Below are positions 7,016 through 27,615 of a stretch of DNA of 28,475 bases, piece by piece. The position numbers and the translations under genes are program-made. The DNA comes from a virus: IMG/VR virus record IMGVR_UViG_3300006749_000083, positions 1-28,475 of that record. One strand, 5' to 3'. Under the pieces are notes generated by a model that was not told the DNA's origin, did not search any database, and saw only the letters and a program-made list of their open reading frames with translations. Numbering within the stretch: position 1 is the first letter of the stretch; each line of letters starts with the position of its first letter.

Positions 7016-8871
7016 CTCTGAGTCCTGAGTTTAAGCCATACTGGATATTTACCACTTGTAAACCATAGTTGATAAGGTCCTGAGTTTAGATAGTCTTGTT
7101 GAGTAAAAAGATCTATATTAGTAACACCAATTAGTCTTGCAACCTCTTCTCTTGTAGGTGGTCGAACTTGGTCAAGAGTTAAATCGTTTTGATTATCAAT
7201 TCTTAAACTGTTTTGATAGTTTTTAAGTATTTCTTTACTTGTTATTCTATAAAAATTTTCGTCTTTTAAAATATAATCATTACTTCTTCTATCAAGCAAT
7301 GAAATTGCTGACTTCCCTTCTGCTAATCCTCTTTCAAATCTTTTTCTCATTTGGATAGAAAAGTCAAAAAATCTTGCTTCACCACCATTATCAAACTGCC
7401 TATATATTTTTGTACCAAGAATAAGATCTTTATTACCATTAAGAAATTGACCAAATAATTTAAAATCTCCTGCTGTATCAGGTTTTTGAAAAGAATTTAT
7501 ATCACTTACTAATGTTCTAAATGTAGCGTTATCAATATCATCTCTTTCAAGAATACTTTTTGCTTGTGTTTCACCCTCAATCAAAAACTTATCATTTATT
7601 GATCTTACTTCTCTTGAAACTATTTTTTCAAATATTCGTCTGTAAACTACTGGTGCTGTTTCATCAGCGAAATTACCATCAACATTTTTCATTAATATTG
7701 TTTGTAAATTGTTTCTCAAAGTTGCACCACCTGAACCCTGAAACTCTAATTTTTTAATTTTATCAAAAGTAAGTGTGCCATCTAAAGCTGCTGGGAGATT
7801 ATCATTGAAAATTGTTTCATTGTTTTCTCTTATCTGATTATTTTTTTCAAACTGTCTAAATCTAATTTCAGATTCAACTTGTGTTGCTTTCTGTTCTGCA
7901 AGTGCAATCACTTTACTCTTTTCACTTTCAGACAAAGTTTTCCATACTTTTTGTTTATCTTCATCACCACCAAAAGTGCCATCTTTTACTTCTGATACTT
8001 TATCATTTATAATAGAACTGTTTGTATTTGGCTCTCTGTTAAGGTCAAAATCAACATGATTACTAAGTGAAGCAATATTATTATTTGTTATAATAGTTTT
8101 TTGTTGTGTTAAAAGTGTTGATAAAACACTCCCCTTTGATGTTGAAAACTCTTTACCTGACTTTGATGTGATCTCTTTTTGTATTGTGTTTAAATCTGTT
8201 ATTGATGTTGAATTTGTTATTTTGTTTTGAATTTGACTAACTGCATCCTCAGAAGTTTTGTTCTTCAAAAATGTTCTAATTTGTGATGATGTGTATGATA
8301 TTGGAATACCTGATACTTTTGCTTCGTTTATTGTATCAATTATTTTTTTTCTTTTGATCTCATACTCAGGGTCTTTGGAGTTGATTGACCTCAAGTCAGA
8401 CAAACCTTTGTCTATATTGCTATCAATTTTTGTTCCTGCAATTATGTTTCCACGATTAAAAGCATTTTGTTTTGCCTTCAACTTAAAAGAGTCAAAAGTT
8501 GATGAAAGTTTTTGTTTTAAAAGATTCGATCTTCTTGAATCATAGTCTTTATCAAACCTTCCTTTAAATTTGTTTATTATTTTATTAATTCTTTCTGTAG
8601 CATCACCGACTGTAGTATCTTTTGTTTGAAGTTCGTTTGATCCTGCTAAATCTAAAAACTTAGACTCCTCTTCTGCTATTATGGCTTTATCTTCTCTATC
8701 TCTTTCAGCCATGCCAAAATTAAAAGCTATTTGTTGTGCTGAGTCTGCGAATGATGCCAATGCTTGTCCAGGAGCAGCAAACGCACCTGTATTGGCAGCA
8801 GGAGACAATGATCCTGTAGCTAACTGTTGCGTTGTTCCTCTTCCTTGATTATATATTGGTATTTTTGCCAT
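7012..8871 (-). CDS. Internal virion protein C, T7 gp15-like
   Basis: A 619-residue, Lys/Asn/Asp-rich, largely helical protein with no signal peptide. It starts MAKIPIYNQGRGTTQQL; residues 30-90 include FADSAQQIAFNFGMAERDRE, a helical N-terminal region seen in core proteins of T7-like marine phages. It sits between the gp14-like and gp16-like genes in exactly the T7 order, one base after the former and overlapping the latter by four. The expected role is the middle ring of the internal core and the periplasmic part of the ejection tube. Sequence identity to T7 gp15 is not apparent by eye, so the call rests on synteny, length and composition. Confidence 0.7.
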   Translation of the reverse strand: MAKIPIYNQGRGTTQQLATGSLSPAANTGAFAAPGQALASFADSAQQIAFNFGMAERDREDKAIIAEEESKFLDLAGSNELQTKDTTVGDATERINKIINKFKGRFDKDYDSRRSNLLKQKLSSTFDSFKLKAKQNAFNRGNIIAGTKIDSNIDKGLSDLRSINSKDPEYEIKRKKIIDTINEAKVSGIPISYTSSQIRTFLKNKTSEDAVSQIQNKITNSTSITDLNTIQKEITSKSGKEFSTSKGSVLSTLLTQQKTIITNNNIASLSNHVDFDLNREPNTNSSIINDKVSEVKDGTFGGDEDKQKVWKTLSESEKSKVIALAEQKATQVESEIRFRQFEKNNQIRENNETIFNDNLPAALDGTLTFDKIKKLEFQGSGGATLRNNLQTILMKNVDGNFADETAPVVYRRIFEKIVSREVRSINDKFLIEGETQAKSILERDDIDNATFRTLVSDINSFQKPDTAGDFKLFGQFLNGNKDLILGTKIYRQFDNGGEARFFDFSIQMRKRFERGLAEGKSAISLLDRRSNDYILKDENFYRITSKEILKNYQNSLRIDNQNDLTLDQVRPPTREEVARLIGVTNIDLFTQQDYLNSGPYQLWFTSGKYPVWLKLRTQR

Positions 8872-18281: not shown

Positions 18282-19561
18282 GCAAAAATATTATAACTAT
18301 TATCAGCAACAGCTTGTGGTGGTCTTGTATAACTCTTTCTATTCTCAATACCTATAGCCAAATATCTAAACGCATCTGCTGCATGTGATGTATAGTCATG
18401 CCTTGGCTGATCCCTAAACCTCTTCTTCTTCTCATCCCACTCTTGCCTGTATTGTTTCATCATCTCAAGACCTAGATGACACTTATCCCTGTCAAAGTAA
18501 CACTTTGGCATCAACAATCTAGCAGCATTGATACCATCAGCTATCTTCATCTTCGAAACCACCTTGAAACGTATGCCAAGACTAAACGCTGTCTCCATCC
18601 GTGATTTGCCAGACCCCAACTCTCTAATTTCAATATCATGTGGAGCAAGGTGGTCTCCATAATGATAATCCTTCTTTCTAAGGACCTCTGCATAATGGTC
18701 CAATCCAAAACCAGTATTCTCATAATAGTCGATAACATTTACTGCTCCTCCTCTGTAAACCTGTGCAAACCAAATAGCTGTTGAATCATTGATACCTAAA
18801 TCCCAAGCTGTATGCACTGGCAACGCAGGATCATACGGCACTCTTGTAATCCTGCCTGCATCTTCAGCTTCTACAAGTAATCTTCCATAGTACGCACCAA
18901 TAATCGCAGCCGTAAACGAACATTCATACTCCTGCTCATACTGCTCTAACGTCATCTGTGACTTGGCAGCATCCAACTCCGTATCTTTTACCAACTGCGT
19001 TTCACTAGCCTTGGCAATCTTCCAATACCAATAATCACTTCCCTCTTCAGTCTCATGTTTAGCCTGAGTCAATATTTCATAAAAATGGTTATGTCCATTT
19101 GGTGTACCTAGAAATATAGCTGCACCCTCTCTATCCGATAGTGCTGGTCTTACAACCTCCCCCCATACCCTAGGATTCTGCATCCCATACTCATCAAACA
19201 CACACAAGTCCAAGTAAATACCTCTTAACGCATCAGGATTTTCACCTGACAACAACATAATCCTACCACCATTAGGAAAGTCTGCCCTCAGTTCAGTCTC
19301 ATTAAACGTAACTCCTGGTATCACACCAGCATAATACTTTACATAATCCCAACTAATCCTCTTAGCCTGACTAAACGTAGGTGCAACCAAAGCAACTCTC
19401 GGTCTTGGCAACGGACAAGTCAAAGCATGTTTTATCATGTGATTGACAGCAAACACAGTTTTACCAAATCTCCTGTGCATAACAAGCACATTCCATCTCT
19501 TCAAGTCTCTGTGCATCTCTGCCTGTAAGTCTCTAGGCTTATATGGTATCTTTACTTGCAT
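18278..19561 (-). CDS. terL: Terminase large subunit (packaging ATPase/nuclease)
   Basis: 427 residues. Walker A-like motif at 28-35 (MHRRFGKT), Walker B at about 118-123 (LCVFDE; D122, E123), and a coupling SGENPDALRG region. The C-terminal nuclease carries candidate metal ligands D253 (AWDLGINDST), D308 (PHDIE), D388 and D395 (RHDYTSHAADAFRY), the usual RNase-H-like arrangement. It pumps DNA through the portal and cuts concatemers. It starts inside the last 23 bases of terS. Confidence 0.95.
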   Translation of the reverse strand: MQVKIPYKPRDLQAEMHRDLKRWNVLVMHRRFGKTVFAVNHMIKHALTCPLPRPRVALVAPTFSQAKRISWDYVKYYAGVIPGVTFNETELRADFPNGGRIMLLSGENPDALRGIYLDLCVFDEYGMQNPRVWGEVVRPALSDREGAAIFLGTPNGHNHFYEILTQAKHETEEGSDYWYWKIAKASETQLVKDTELDAAKSQMTLEQYEQEYECSFTAAIIGAYYGRLLVEAEDAGRITRVPYDPALPVHTAWDLGINDSTAIWFAQVYRGGAVNVIDYYENTGFGLDHYAEVLRKKDYHYGDHLAPHDIEIRELGSGKSRMETAFSLGIRFKVVSKMKIADGINAARLLMPKCYFDRDKCHLGLEMMKQYRQEWDEKKKRFRDQPRHDYTSHAADAFRYLAIGIENRKSYTRPPQAVADNSYNIFA

Positions 19562-20671: not shown

Positions 20672-21193
20672 ATGAAACTACATCATACAAAATATAAACA
20701 AAACTATGTAAATTATATCTTAGATACAATAGACGAAGATATCAACGGCAAGCCATTAATAAATAAAAAAAATAAAATAAGTTATATCTTTGAAAGATTT
20801 TATAGTGAATATGGCTGGAACGTAGAGCAGCAAGGCAAGTTAAAAGCAATGACTGAATGGCTTTCTGGCTTAGCTTTAAATATTGATTACACATATTCAG
20901 ATATAATAAAACTTGCCATTGACATGGGAAGTATTGACGAAAACCCAAGCGACAAGCTGCAGGACAAAGTTTGTGAAAACTATTTTAATTTTATGGCTAA
21001 TATAATTTTATCTATAGAACCAACACACGCAATAACTAAAGACAATGAAACAATTTATTTTGGCAGCAATCAAGATTGTTTTTCTAAGTTATTAGATATT
21101 CAACCATTTAGTACAGATTATGCAATCAAACATGGTGGATATAATATAACAACTAATAACTTACATTGGAGGAGCATATATAAAACTGCATAA
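20672..21193 (+). CDS. Unknown protein, conserved-looking alpha-helical
   Basis: 173 residues with AAGGAG 11 bases before the ATG. The central part ISYIFERFYSEYGWNVEQQG, then KAMTEWLSGLALNIDYTY and IDENPSDKLQDKVCENYF, resembles a hypothetical protein I recall from cyanophages and other marine phages, where it is always of unknown function. It is rich in aromatic residues and predicted helical, with no signal peptide or catalytic motif. The C-terminal tail (TTNNLHWRSIYKTA) is basic. It is the longest gene of the early cassette. Confidence 0.7.
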   Translation: MKLHHTKYKQNYVNYILDTIDEDINGKPLINKKNKISYIFERFYSEYGWNVEQQGKLKAMTEWLSGLALNIDYTYSDIIKLAIDMGSIDENPSDKLQDKVCENYFNFMANIILSIEPTHAITKDNETIYFGSNQDCFSKLLDIQPFSTDYAIKHGGYNITTNNLHWRSIYKTA

Positions 21194-21203
21194 GTAAACC
21201 TCG

Positions 21204-21229
21204 AAAGGCTGGAGCAATACCAGCCTTTT
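21204..21229 (+). terminator. Hairpin terminator after the 173-residue gene
   Basis: Stem AAAGGCTGG / CCAGCCTTT (9 bp), loop AGCAATA, followed by a short T run (CCTTTTAAG). It starts 10 bases after the stop of the preceding gene. The T run is only four long, so termination may be partial. Confidence 0.6.
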
Positions 21230-21231
21230 AA

Positions 21232-21249
21232 GATTTACTTGCGTAAATC
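21232..21249 (+). promoter_or_regulatory. Second hairpin with alternative pairing
   Basis: GATTTAC / GTAAATC forms a perfect 7-bp stem with a TTGC loop. TTTAC in its left arm can instead pair with AAGTAAA at 21192-21198 (AAGTAAA / TTTACTT), which would enclose the terminator stem at 21204-21228. The two structures exclude each other. Confidence 0.45.
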
Positions 21250-21756: not shown

Positions 21757-21771
21757 AGAAACGAAACAAGT

Positions 21772-21814
21772 TACAGGCTGGTTTATATCCTAAAAACTAT
21801 TTAACTAGCCTGTA
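21772..21814 (+). promoter_or_regulatory. Intercistronic hairpin 3, long stem
   Basis: TACAGGCTGGTT pairs with AACTAGCCTGTA (12 bp with one G-U pair), with a loop of about 19 bases. It lies between the small membrane protein gene and the next ribosome site (AAAGGAG). It is large enough to be an RNase III-type processing site or an attenuator; no U tract follows. It shares AGGCTGG with the terminator at 21204. Confidence 0.5.
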
Positions 21815-21857
21815 GCCTTCTTAAATCGCTATTAAACAACTAAAGGAGTACATAACA

Positions 21858-22043
21858 ATGACTAAAAAATATTATCCCCATGTATGGGATTTAACATTTT
21901 GTCTTATGGATATAGACGGAAATCCAAAAAAAGACAAAGAGGGAAATATAATTTTGTATGAGGATCACAAGATGGATTGTAGTTCAATTTGTGATTTTGT
22001 TGATGAAAATAATTTAACACAGATAAAAGAGAAAGAGCAATGA
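21858..22043 (+). CDS. Small unknown early protein (61 aa)
   Basis: 61 residues, MTKKYYPHVWDLTFCLMDID, with AAGGAG about 10 bases before the ATG and the same AACAAC leader. It is acidic (ILYEDHKMDCSSICDFVDEN, ending KEKEQ) and beta-strand rich at the start. No motif recognised. Its stop overlaps the start of the HTH gene (ATGA), so both are probably made together; it might modulate the regulator, which is speculation. Confidence 0.6.
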   Translation: MTKKYYPHVWDLTFCLMDIDGNPKKDKEGNIILYEDHKMDCSSICDFVDENNLTQIKEKEQ

Positions 22044-22228
22044 TAAGAGAAAGCATAACCAAAGAACAGTATAAGCAAATACGAACACGGCTAAAATACA
22101 CACAAGCTGAATTTGCAACAGAACTGGGAATAGATAAACAAACAGTTTCCAGACATGAAACAGGAGAGAGAGGTATAAGTAAAACTATAGCTATCTTGAT
22201 TGGTTACATATTTGAGAAACAAAAATAG
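22040..22228 (+). CDS. Cro/CI-type helix-turn-helix DNA-binding protein
   Basis: 62 residues made almost entirely of an XRE/Cro-type HTH domain: EQYKQIRTRLKYTQAEFATE, then LGIDKQTVSRHETGERGIS. This is the size of Cro-like repressors, without a C-terminal dimerisation or protease domain. The dyad array at 22381-22551 lies 150 bases downstream, so it is the first candidate for its binding sites. It belongs to the rightward early cassette and may switch genes during infection. Start by ATGA overlap with the previous gene. Confidence 0.85.
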   Translation: MIRESITKEQYKQIRTRLKYTQAEFATELGIDKQTVSRHETGERGISKTIAILIGYIFEKQK

Positions 22229-22237
22229 GAGAGAAAG

Positions 22238-22369
22238 ATGAAAAGAGAGGATAAAATTAAATTTATTATTGAGCAAGAAAAAGCAGCAAATAACTCTTGG
22301 AAGTGGATTAAGACGGCAGATGATAAAACAATTAATGAACTTTATGATTATTGGACACAAGAATTATAA
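22238..22369 (+). CDS. Small unknown protein (43 aa) after the HTH gene
   Basis: 43 residues, MKREDKIKFIIEQEKAANNS at the N-terminus, then WKWIKTADDKTINELYDYWT. AGGAGAG is placed close before the ATG. It is helical and charged, with no known motif. It follows the HTH gene directly, so it is in the same transcript and could be an accessory to it. Confidence 0.5.
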   Translation: MKREDKIKFIIEQEKAANNSWKWIKTADDKTINELYDYWTQEL

Positions 22370-22380
22370 GAGAGAAAGAC

Positions 22381-22551
22381 GCATAGTATTACATACTAAG
22401 CATAGTATAATATGCAATACATAATATACTATTAGAGCAATACTATAATATAGTTTATTAATTATTATAGTAATAGATACTAAGCATAGTATATGCAATG
22501 CTTAGTATACTAAGCATAGTATATAAACTATTATAGTACTAGCATAGTATA
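22381..22551. repeat. AT-rich array of dyad repeats, possible operator or origin
   Basis: Three exact copies of ATACTAAGCATAGTAT, itself an inverted repeat (ATACTA / TAGTAT, spacer AGCA), at 22393-22408, 22477-22492 and 22507-22522. A fourth copy lacking one A is at 22537-22550, and a half copy (GCATAGTAT) at 22381. A larger inverted repeat, ATACTAAGCAT / ATGCTTAGTAT, covers 22477-22508. Another, TACTATAATA / TATTATAGTA, covers 22441-22472. No gene fits in 22370-22587. Repeated dyads in AT-rich DNA are what protein-binding operator clusters or iteron origins look like. The nearby HTH protein is the best candidate partner. Confidence 0.75.
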
Positions 22552-22587
22552 GTATATATGCCGTAGCATAATAGACTGGAGGGTAAC

Positions 22588-22722
22588 ATGGAAAGTAAAA
22601 ATCACCAAGAAAAAAATATTATTTGTTTTAGATGCAAAATTAAAATGAATAAAACAGAACTAAAAGGAGTTTACAAATGCCCAGCTTGTGATCTTGTAGA
22701 AGAGAAAGAGGAAGAAAAATGA
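22588..22722 (+). CDS. Small zinc-ribbon protein (44 aa)
   Basis: 44 residues with GGAGGG before the ATG. Cysteines C13, C16, C31 and C34 form two CxxC pairs (CFRC and CPAC), the pattern of a zinc ribbon, with an acidic tail (EEKEEEK). Such mini-ribbons bind nucleic acid or RNA polymerase. It is the first gene after the dyad array, so it may be under the array's control. Confidence 0.65.
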   Translation: MESKNHQEKNIICFRCKIKMNKTELKGVYKCPACDLVEEKEEEK

Positions 22723-22796
22723 GAGGGAAAAATTTCAATATAGGATATTTTGCCGTCTTAGGCAATGACGAACACGCAAAATTCAAAAAGAAATGA
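22719..22796 (+). CDS. Very short frame (25 aa), uncertain
   Basis: MRGKNFNIGYFAVLGNDEHA followed by KFKKK, read from an ATG that overlaps the zinc-ribbon stop. It lies between two direct copies of AAATGAGAGGGAAAAAT (22717-22733 and 22791-22807). Its stop falls in the terminator stem. It might be a leader peptide or just a by-product of the repeat. Confidence 0.3.
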   Translation: MRGKNFNIGYFAVLGNDEHAKFKKK

Positions 22797-22817
22797 GAGG
22801 GAAAAATCCCTCTCATT
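22792..22817 (-). terminator. Hairpin terminator between convergent blocks
   Basis: 11-bp perfect stem AATGAGAGGGA / TCCCTCTCATT with a 4-base loop. Read on the minus strand it is followed by TCTTTTTGAATTTT, a U-rich tract, so it should end the transcript from 24619-22876. On the plus strand no U run follows. Confidence 0.75.
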
Positions 22818-23320: not shown

Positions 23321-23459
23321 TTTTTTCTCCATAGTAAACTAAAACAAAAGCGTTGCATTTTGGGCAAGACAAGTTTGTAACTATAAGGTATTCGTCATTA
23401 TCCTCACAATCGTGATCTCCACCCCATATTAATTCTGTATTACAATGCCAACATTTCAT
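23298..23459 (-). CDS. Zinc-ribbon protein (53 aa)
   Basis: 53 residues beginning MKCWHCNTELIWGGDHDCED, then NLSCPKCNAFVLVYYGEKNE. Two CxxC pairs (C3/C6 and C32/C35) form a zinc ribbon. I recall the same N-terminus in marine phage proteins. It overlaps the nuclease stop by ATGA and the DUF6378-like start by 23 bases, so all three are coupled. Role unknown, probably nucleic-acid or protein binding. Confidence 0.7.
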   Translation of the reverse strand: MKCWHCNTELIWGGDHDCEDNDEYLIVTNLSCPKCNAFVLVYYGEKNEQETST

Positions 23460-23827
23460 ATCTTTTCTCTAACAATATAAAACCAAGTATCAATATCAAC
23501 TTCACAAACTAGGTCCTGATTAGAAGAGAAACCATGCTCGAATACATCTAGCCTGATAACACACTTGATTGGGTGGTTGTTGTATTTGTAAATCAAAACA
23601 GGCTGCTTGTCTCCACAGTTACTTACTGCTTGATCCCACCAGCTTTGTTTGTAGGTAGTGCCTTTTTGATATGCCTTACATTCTATTGACCAGCCAGGTA
23701 TCTCTATATCTGCACCACCAACTTGATACTGGTCTAAGTTTCTTCTAGCATCATAACCAAGAGCATGCTTGATGAGTGAGCAAATCTTTCTCTCAAAAGA
23801 TGCACCTTTGTCTCTACTGTTTGGCAT
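23456..23827 (-). CDS. Holliday-junction-resolvase-like PD-(D/E)XK nuclease
   Basis: 123 residues with the archetypal small PD-(D/E)XK layout: E12 (GASFER), D40 (GGADIEI), then E49-x-K51 (WSIECKAYQ), followed by SWWDQAV. This matches Hjc/VRR-type nucleases, which cut branched DNA. In a phage it would resolve recombination or replication intermediates before packaging. It overlaps the GNAT gene by 14 bases and is close to the recombination block starting at 24670. Substrate not shown by sequence. Confidence 0.72.
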   Translation of the reverse strand: MPNSRDKGASFERKICSLIKHALGYDARRNLDQYQVGGADIEIPGWSIECKAYQKGTTYKQSWWDQAVSNCGDKQPVLIYKYNNHPIKCVIRLDVFEHGFSSNQDLVCEVDIDTWFYIVREKI

Positions 23828-24395
23828 CTTGCAAAACTTTTTTTCTATATATTAAAAGTTCTTTCCCTCTCTTAAAAGAACTGCCGATTGATATTTTTCT
23901 TTTTCTCCAATGACTTGAATCTTGCTTTTTTTCTGAAGGTAAAAATTCTGTAATAAACAAAGGTTTGACAATATCATATCTCCAATTATTTATGTCTCTC
24001 ATTCTTCTAACCCCACCTTGAGTTATAGATTCACAATAAAAACCCATTGCTTTCCAGAAAAAATTTGCTTGTATATCTGAGCCACATCTTAATGTTATTG
24101 ATAAAACATTTTTATTTATACAATGAGTTATTAAATCTCTTACTAACTTTGCTCCATATAGCTGTCCTCTTAAATCATATTCAATACACGCTTGATGGAT
24201 TTTGCAAAAAGTTTTTTCAGCACCATGATATAAATAACCACAAGGTTGATTGTTTATTTCTGCAAGTAATATTCTTTTTTTCTCTAACTCTCTTTCAAAA
24301 ACTATATTAGGATAGAAAGATAACTCTTCTGCGTTTTTCTTTTGCAAATAATCAATATAACTTAAATCTTTAAGAGTGCCATACCTTACTATCAT
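23814..24395 (-). CDS. GNAT-family N-acetyltransferase
   Basis: 193 residues. The acetyl-CoA motif is visible at about 73-84 (YDLRGQLYGAKL; R-G-Q-L-Y-G-A) and motif B at 107-120 (DIQANFFWKAMGFY). VRRMRDINNWRYDIVKPLF follows and then a basic C-terminal extension (HWRKRKISIGSSFKRGKELL). Its target is unknown. It overlaps the HTH gene by four bases. Confidence 0.8.
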   Translation of the reverse strand: MIVRYGTLKDLSYIDYLQKKNAEELSFYPNIVFERELEKKRILLAEINNQPCGYLYHGAEKTFCKIHQACIEYDLRGQLYGAKLVRDLITHCINKNVLSITLRCGSDIQANFFWKAMGFYCESITQGGVRRMRDINNWRYDIVKPLFITEFLPSEKKQDSSHWRKRKISIGSSFKRGKELLIYRKKVLQDAKQ

Positions 24396-24619
24396 CTACC
24401 TACCATTCTCTCCTGTGCTTCTTTCATAAAGTCATTAGCCTTTACTTGACCATCAGTAGCTAACTCTATCTTGTTGAGTGTATCAGGTCTAGGAAACCTT
24501 TTGCCTTGCAACAGAAGAGTAATAGCAGAACGATCTAAGTCGCACATCTTGGCAAACTTGTACTGCGATATATTATTTATTCTCAAGTAATCTTTTAGTT
24601 TCATATCTTCTTGTAACAT
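24392..24619 (-). CDS. Cro/CI-like HTH regulator
   Basis: 75 residues, with a lambda-repressor-type HTH: LKDYLRINNISQYKFAKMCD, followed by LDRSAITLLLQGKRFPRPDT. Likely a small DNA-binding repressor. Two starts are possible: ATG 24619 (no ribosome site) or ATG 24604 (AAGAAG just upstream). It is divergent from the exonuclease gene with a 50-bp gap, a typical autoregulated layout. Confidence 0.8.
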   Translation of the reverse strand: MLQEDMKLKDYLRINNISQYKFAKMCDLDRSAITLLLQGKRFPRPDTLNKIELATDGQVKANDFMKEAQERMVGR

Positions 24620-24669
24620 GTAGTTGACAAAATGTAAATACTATATTACAACTATCTTGGAGGTGCAAA
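24620..24669. promoter_or_regulatory. 50-bp divergent gap with possible operator
   Basis: TAGTTGACAA occurs here and also at the promoter at 20207. Downstream is an imperfect inverted repeat TGTAA (24633-24637) / TTACA (24646-24650), 8 bases apart. TTGACA and TATATT are separated by only 12 bases, too close for sigma70. GGAGGT precedes the exonuclease start. Probably holds the promoter and operator of the HTH regulator. Confidence 0.4.
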
Positions 24670-25557
24670 ATGGAAATACCAGATTATTGTAAAAACTTTG
24701 GTTTGTTTCATCAATCAGCAAGTACAGCTAACTTGCCAATAGATCAAGCCATACTTAAACTATATCTTAGACAAGAACATAAACTTAACTATCCTGATGC
24801 AGCACGAATGATGCTAGGCAGATTAGTACAAACTGCATTAGATCATCACTTAGGTTTGCATGACTTCTCACCAATCAAAGGACAACAGGAAGGTCTTGAG
24901 ATAAATCAGGCAATCAGGGAGTCGTTGACAGAATATCAACAGTACACACCAAGAACCTGGGATAACGGAAAAGACCAGTTAGAGTACGAAACATACCAAG
25001 ATTACCTACCTGATATGGTCAAGGTGGCAGCACAGGGAATCAAGGAATATTTTCAGAATGTCAACAGTATTGATGGAGAGTTTGCTCAACATCATATCGA
25101 AGAGCAGATAGACGTACCTGTATTATATTATCAGGATTATTCAGGTGGTGGCAGACAGATAGATTTAAAATGTCATGCACCAATCAAAAACCCTACAAAG
25201 AAAGATGGCACATCAACTTGGAGAATACCAAAGCCAAGGACAGAACCTTTGCCATCTTGGATTAGACAACAGGCAGTTTACTGGAAAGCAACAGGACAGA
25301 AACCAGCTTTGCTTTCAGTAACAGCATCAGATTATCATATCATTGATGAAAAGAATTGTGAGCAGATGCAAGATGAATACTTGCAAGTTGCTTACGATAG
25401 CGTGGTACATGACTGGAAAGTTATGCAAAACTTATTCAAAGATAGTCGAGGTAGCTGGATAGAACTCAAGAACAGAGCCAAACTGGACTATCCTGAAGTA
25501 TTGCAGAGATATGGACCTGACATTGCCAAATTAGCACAACAACTATGGAGTAAATAA
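24670..25557 (+). CDS. PD-(D/E)XK exonuclease (Cas4/RecB-like)
   Basis: 295 residues. Motif II/III: D156 (YYQDYSGGG), then D165-x-K167 (QIDLKC), with Q200/Q201 and Y204 (IRQQAVYWKATG), the layout of RecB/Cas4-type nucleases. An N-terminal block ending GRLVQTALDHHLG (His59-60) is like the helix that precedes the active site. It likely resects DNA ends for the Erf-type annealing protein at 26078. It has GGAGGT eight bases before its ATG. The next gene starts in its stop (TAATG). Confidence 0.78.
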   Translation: MEIPDYCKNFGLFHQSASTANLPIDQAILKLYLRQEHKLNYPDAARMMLGRLVQTALDHHLGLHDFSPIKGQQEGLEINQAIRESLTEYQQYTPRTWDNGKDQLEYETYQDYLPDMVKVAAQGIKEYFQNVNSIDGEFAQHHIEEQIDVPVLYYQDYSGGGRQIDLKCHAPIKNPTKKDGTSTWRIPKPRTEPLPSWIRQQAVYWKATGQKPALLSVTASDYHIIDEKNCEQMQDEYLQVAYDSVVHDWKVMQNLFKDSRGSWIELKNRAKLDYPEVLQRYGPDIAKLAQQLWSK

Positions 25558-25907
25558 TGACTGAAGTATATAAACTACACAGAAAAGATGCAGATACAAC
25601 TAGCATTGAGTCTGCTCAGAATGTCAAAGTAAATCGTCTGGAAAAAATAGTCTACGAAGTTATAGATAACTTTGGAACAAGTGGCTGCATACAAGATGAT
25701 GTACTACAAGAGTTACATGACTATCCTTATTCTACTGTTACTGCTCGTTTTAAAGCCTTGGAAGAGAAGAACATGATTGTCAGGTGCGAACATACACGAA
25801 AAGGTAAAAGAGGTCGTAAACAGCGAATTATGATGTCTAAAAGATTTTACGATCATAATGATGGTATGACTGACGAGGAACTACAACAGGGAATATTAGG
25901 AGTATAA
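25557..25907 (+). CDS. Winged-helix protein
   Basis: 116 residues with a likely winged-helix domain: NRLEKIVYEVIDNFGTSGCI, then QDDVLQELHDYPYSTVTARF and KALEEKNMIVRCEHTRKG (wing). KGKRGRKQRIMM is basic. It could regulate the recombination operon or act in replication; DNA-binding is inferred from fold and charge. Overlaps the exonuclease gene by one base. Confidence 0.65.
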   Translation: MTEVYKLHRKDADTTSIESAQNVKVNRLEKIVYEVIDNFGTSGCIQDDVLQELHDYPYSTVTARFKALEEKNMIVRCEHTRKGKRGRKQRIMMSKRFYDHNDGMTDEELQQGILGV

Positions 25908-27336: not shown

Positions 27337-27615
27337 TCAACTCCATTTAGTTCTGTTTGCCCAGTAAGCAGCAGACATCTTACCTTTGGCTATGTTCTTT
27401 GCGTGTCTAGCCTTAAAAGATTTTTTTCTTGCTTTGTCTTTTGCTGACTTGGGATTAGCACCAGCACCAGTTACTCCTTGTTGTCCAAACCTAATTGTCT
27501 TTACTTTGTTTCCTTCTTTTGCCACAACAACATGACTTTTAGTAGGATGGTTTGGTGTTTTCTTTACCTTGTTGTAGCCTGACAATCCTAGTCTTTTGAG
27601 TGTTGCTTGACTCAT
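27337..27615 (-). CDS. Conserved small basic phage protein
   Basis: 92 residues from ATG 27615, which overlaps the endolysin stop (ATGA). The sequence LSGYNKVKKTPNHPTKSHVV and IRFGQQGVTGAGANP then KSFKARHAKNIAKGKMSAAY matches a small, strongly basic protein I have seen repeatedly in marine phages. Upstream in-frame extension into the endolysin gene is not credible. Function unknown; nucleic-acid binding is suggested by the charge. Confidence 0.7.
   Translation of the reverse strand: MSQATLKRLGLSGYNKVKKTPNHPTKSHVVVAKEGNKVKTIRFGQQGVTGAGANPKSAKDKARKKSFKARHAKNIAKGKMSAAYWANRTKWS

Follow-up and report, generated by a model that had tools for sequence, protein, structure and literature searches.

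What does a cluster of short, repeated dyads do in a gene-free gap at the end of a phage's early operon? We examined such a cluster in virus record IMGVR_UViG_3300006749_000083; the window analyzed is this 28.5-kb record (28,475 nt), which is not a whole genome. It belongs to an uncultivated marine phage clade that is distant kin of the HTVC010P-type pelagiphages. The window's terminase is about 50% identical to the HTVC010P-type terminases, and more than 300 closer terminase kin are present in viral contigs (330 TerL relatives in one scan).

The late genes occupy the minus strand of the window, and the small early genes form a plus-strand operon with the array at its end. Beyond the array lies an opposing operon encoding a DUF6378 protein, a resolvase-like PD-(D/E)XK protein (23456-23827), an acetyltransferase, and a second HTH protein (HTH2, 24392-24619). 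It is followed on the plus strand by exonuclease-like, winged-helix, annealing, and SSB-like genes; the nuclease gene of this operon is 2.2 kb from the array. The names resolvase-like, DUF6378, acetyltransferase, and HTH are based on profile matches. The exonuclease-like gene is so called because it remotely matches a nuclease annotated in a pelagiphage, and the annealing and SSB-like genes are presumptively named from their position and from the annotation of their counterparts in HTVC034P and C72C1; one relative also shows a weak match to Rad52, which adds to the naming of the annealing protein. Searching for the host via the annealing protein gave weak matches only, to a Rhodobacteraceae MAG contig and an Albimonas prophage region, and comparable dyads were found in neither.

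The gap itself (22371-22587, 217 bp) extends from the stop of a 43-aa ORF (22239-22370) to the ATG of a zinc-ribbon gene at 22588, and is kept in relatives. It holds the whole element, a putative stand-alone origin. The array is noncoding and the zinc-ribbon gene follows it, both as described in the first-pass annotation. That annotation also placed an HTH gene about 150 bases upstream; the gene (22040-22228, encoding a 62-aa XRE-family protein with an HTH_3 match at E 2.7e-9) ends 152 bases before the array, but it is not the neighboring gene, as the 43-aa ORF intervenes.

A motif search recovered three exact plus-strand copies of the 16-mer ATACTAAGCATAGTAT (22393-22408, 22477-22492, and 22507-22522) and an inverted near-copy with two mismatches on the minus strand (22493-22508). 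Plus-strand half-sites GCATAGTAT mark the 5' edge (22381-22389) and the 3' edge (22542-22550). With up to three mismatches allowed, the 16-mer has eight strand-matches where 0.61 are expected, a number reached in none of 100 shuffles, and all eight exact GCWTAGTAT half-sites of the window lie inside 22381-22550. The repeat cluster reported for 22381-22551 is therefore real. The 16-bp unit is symmetric as claimed, but the symmetry is imperfect, with two mismatches between the 16-mer and its own reverse complement. The longer inverted repeats were also confirmed: an imperfect one, ATAGTATAATATGCAATACATAATATACTAT, at 22402-22432, and a 36-bp near-perfect palindrome at 22490-22525 that is made up of the inverted near-copy and copy 3. 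Another, TACTATAATA/TATTATAGTA, appears in the single-strand DNA fold around the AT-rich core (22441-22472, arms 22441-22450 and 22463-22472). The fold of the array as single-stranded DNA has a z of -4.2, and as RNA a z of -2.4. No Rfam family covers the array, matches up to E 1 all being under the gathering score and elsewhere, and a scan for promoters and terminators detected none there.

Duplex stability was calculated by the nearest-neighbor method for 50-bp stretches and ranked per genome. No other 50-bp duplex in the window is as unstable as the AT-rich core at 22444-22493, a putative unwinding element. The same locus is the least stable in G002, G005, and G008, and ranks second in G007 and third in G006 among the sites listed. 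The two arrays of G001, located at the overlapping contig ends, are the two least stable stretches of that record. The easily melted element that adjoins the sites of a lambda-type origin is thus found in the window; it is weaker in G003/G004, where the AT-rich core ranks only within the least stable 2% of the genome.

Among the relatives, the position of the element is kept while its sequence changes. In G002-G008 the palindrome at this junction ranks first or second in strength within its genome, and in the wider clade a strong dyad or iteron cluster of lineage-specific sequence is always present there. We distinguished four classes at the junction: class A, the window's array; class B, TATCTATGCACTGCTATAGCAGTGCATAGATA; class C, AGTATATCTATGCAGTACTGTACTGCATAGATATACT; and class D, ATTCATAG iterons. 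In class D (G003/G004), a T-rich core is surrounded by six ATTCATAG[CT] iterons, and the genome has no others. Classes A, B, and C have a GCATAG core in common, with GCATTG in the main dyad of G008. Class A arrays vary by symmetric changes, for example ATACTAAGCATAGTAT against the reverse complement ATACTATGCTTAGTAT in L015 and others. Across 16 sequences from two related dyad classes, symmetry was kept through some paired changes, a modest signal with only two pairs changed on both sides. In most relatives the array lies at a convergent operon junction, after the last early stop codon. The array of L011 is apparently shortened and without the core, possibly an assembly effect. The contig ends of G001, a 34-kb record, overlap, so this record covers about the full genome; each end carries an array, and the two represent two strains with different genes beside the array. 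G003 has a terminal repeat of 99 bp; records other than these two may be incomplete.

The helical phasing suggested from the 84- and 30-base spacings did not hold up, since these spacings are not conserved: the window's 84 becomes 86 in L009, L016, L022, L037, and L083, and 76 in L015 and L057. The phased direct repeats of a plasmid-type iteron origin are likewise not found here, the copies being dyads at spacings of 84, 86, or 76.

The 5' edge of the array (window 22370-22389) is a hotspot of gene turnover. Directly 5' of the array, class A relatives carry about 12 different small genes, some of which end in its first bases. At 22370 of the window, directly beside the array, is an orphan GAGAGAAAGA that looks like a ribosome-binding site, and the same sequence lies 5' of the gene at 22239, which suggests exchange through short homology.

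Other conserved hairpins were found in the early operon. One, at 21187-21245, just after a gene ending at 21193, has a constant AAACCT...AAGATTT and an inner stem that covaries (both sides changed in 8 of 19 pairs across nine sequences), with an RNA fold z of -6.8. It matched no Rfam family at the gathering threshold in two relatives, and the window gave sub-threshold matches only; it is possibly a new RNA element. The second, of the TGTAAAGGCTAG...CTAGTCTTTACA type, is located at 21771-21817 in the window (z of -4.3), and at 32091 in G005, 7808 in G008, and 1076 in G006.

The first-pass annotation offered two readings of the array, an operator cluster for the HTH protein or an iteron origin of replication, or both. 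Operator arrays of XRE/Cro proteins in temperate phages are AT-rich short dyads close to a small HTH gene, and the window's array is like them in both respects; 16-bp dyads would fit an HTH dimer, and the upstream gene with its HTH_3 match supplies one. In related phages, however, the array persists where the HTH gene is absent. Seven contigs (L013, L015, L025, L035, L049, L068, and L084) carry TerS and the array with no HTH match between them; the ORFs of L013 and L015 include no HTH family, and L015 has also lost the zinc-ribbon gene while keeping the array. No match to the HTH protein was found in G001. Furthermore, the site sequence does not track the recognition helix, which differs at the same or nearly the same dyad between L116/L117 and L139/L115 (class C), between L154 and L165 (class B), and between L129 and L189; an example from classes B and C at constant dyad is VDSVSISRYENGHRE versus ITIRMITYYESGQRP. 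Exact half-sites occur nowhere else in the window, so there is no regulon, and classes B, C, and D showed no plus-strand gene on the stretch from the dyads to the opposing operon. We therefore consider it very unlikely that the array is the operator through which the XRE-family protein controls the early genes. In relatives, an inverted repeat of the GGCGTTGCATACATGACAATGCAACGCC type just 5' of the HTH gene (G006 1412-1440, G008 7320-7347, G007 18375-18403, and G002 27338-27367) would be a likelier operator for this protein than the array. HTH2 was rejected as the binder as well: its recognition helix differs among members of dyad class A, and the divergent gap between HTH2 and the exonuclease-like gene (24611-24665) carries a different inverted repeat. 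This repeat, TAGTTG...CAACTA, is accompanied by a promoter-like TTGACA and is a possible HTH2 operator.

For the origin reading, we compared the clade with four phages outside it, three of the HTVC010P type (HTVC034P, Skadi-7, and HTVC010P) and C72C1. The first three encode an O-like replication initiation protein, and C72C1 has an annotated replication initiation protein. In all four, the gene contains tandem repeats: HTVC034P has 3 x 17 nt at 22/21 bp, Skadi-7 has 2 x 17 nt and HTVC010P 2 x 12 nt, both at 22 bp, and C72C1 has 2 x 24 nt at 24 bp. Because similar tandem repeats occur at 3 to 13 other places in each of these genomes, a single case says little; the weight lies in the O-like gene having one in all four phages. 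The repeats, which we take as predicted, apparent origins, lie in the same region as the window's array, with the early operon on one side and the HTH2/nuclease genes on the other, and like it are near AT-rich DNA in some of the phages. Their distance to the nuclease gene is 1.6-3.4 kb in HTVC034P, Skadi-7, and C72C1. Unlike the array, they are direct repeats phased at 21-24 bp and part of a gene encoding an O-like protein, whereas the window's array consists of noncoding dyads. Searches with two PHROG families and a profile built from the four proteins found no O-like protein in any of the nine clade genomes, the window and eight relatives; the DnaA-C domain, present in a protein of HTVC034P and Skadi-7, was likewise found in none of the nine. 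No polymerase or helicase was recognizable in the clade genomes examined, nor was a cognate initiator or helicase loader, with the window being only part of a genome. HTVC010P-type phages are reported to lack their own DNA polymerase and use that of the host, and Skadi to have a helicase loader (PMC10504331). The loss of the O-like gene against the presence of the element is a single clade-level contrast, not a replicated one. In the papers we searched, we found no description of an origin in HTVC010P-type phages.

The iterons of phage lambda are inverted repeats bound by O dimers, with an AT-rich element adjacent (PMC5043065). The window's array shares with ori-lambda, which is inside gene O, the several dyad-symmetric copies in one short region, fit for a dimer, and the adjoining AT-rich opening element (PMC5043065). 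It differs from ori-lambda in its location outside any initiator gene, in belonging to a clade in which no O- or P-like protein was found, and in repeat sequences that are different and lineage-specific. The iteron origins of plasmids and of the PLE satellite (RepA_N; PMC7145576) are alike in having repeated sites near an AT-rich tract, and the class D relatives resemble them most; in contrast to these origins, the window's sites are dyads rather than direct repeats, and no Rep protein was found.

We lean towards the array being a free-standing, lambda-like replication origin composed of dimer-binding dyads and an AT-rich unwinding element. A dimeric protein would bind the dyads that flank the AT-rich segment, binding would open this segment, the easiest to melt in the genome, and the opened segment would let the host replisome load. 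In the outside-clade phages, which have a similar recombination and replication module, the apparent origin would be inside the initiator gene; in the window's clade it would stand alone between the early and opposing operons. The architecture, the conserved position, the retention of the array in relatives without the HTH or zinc-ribbon gene, and the synteny with the O-gene repeats support the origin proposed in the first-pass annotation, but GC skew does not: the best-fit positions of a GC3-skew regression scatter and are confounded by gene strand. The failure to find an initiator, the stability rank of the core in G003/G004, and the apparently shortened array of L011 also count against it.

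The binder would perhaps be a clade-specific winged-helix protein or a host protein. The winged-helix gene (25557-25907, plus strand) lies between the exonuclease-like and annealing-protein genes and is present in all nine clade genomes, with a conserved recognition region. There was no convincing match to the protein in HTVC010P, HTVC034P, Skadi-7, C72C1, or HTVC106P, and a single-phage search of annotated phages gave no match. A winged-helix fold is predicted (mean pLDDT 70), with no PDB match below E 0.001.

Other explanations were also weighed. The array could be bound by a host protein, either a regulator or a nucleoid protein, and serve to control early-region or opposing-operon transcription rather than replication. 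The GCATAG core common to three classes would suit such a protein, as would the finding that no phage HTH tracks the dyad, with the helices of both HTH and HTH2 varying within one dyad class. However, the convergent junction in most relatives leaves no downstream gene to regulate, there is no excess of promoters, and the genome-minimum duplex stability is left unexplained; we regard this reading as unlikely. Somewhat less probable still is an origin without a sequence-specific phage initiator, in which palindromes kept for their symmetry would extrude as cruciforms and be recognized by shape. The PD-(D/E)XK enzyme would cut the hairpins, starting recombination-dependent replication by the host replisome with the phage annealing protein and exonuclease. 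Consistent with it are symmetry that outlasts sequence turnover, the single-strand DNA fold, the match of the enzyme to a RusA-like resolvase family (E 6e-19), the failure to find an initiator, and the turnover hotspot at the 5' edge. Against it, the GCATAG core in three classes and the recurrent ATTCATAG iterons of class D suggest recognition of sequence.

An element acting in RNA, with 3' end hairpins that terminate or stabilize the early transcripts, would agree with the location after the last early stop codon and with the RNA fold, but the DNA fold is the more unusual of the two, the dyads are symmetric through their own centers, and the array is not called as a terminator. A separate, perfect terminator-like hairpin, AATGAGAGGGAAAAATCCCTCTCATT, is located between the converging operons at 22792-22817, and we consider the RNA reading highly improbable. 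A DNA packaging or genome-end site has the smallest probability of all. Several contigs do end in the array, but they share no common position or side, with just 5 of about 50 ends in 22409-22499. This is the pattern expected of assembly breaks at variable repeats, and about 2.4 kb separate the array from the TerS-like gene; for the scatter of the ends we dropped this explanation.

The clade is numerous in public viral contigs. If the free-standing origin is correct, these phages would have an origin whose position outlasts, or does not depend on, an embedded initiator gene while its sequence changes quickly, and the candidate locus would be a defined 217-bp segment with one candidate binder.
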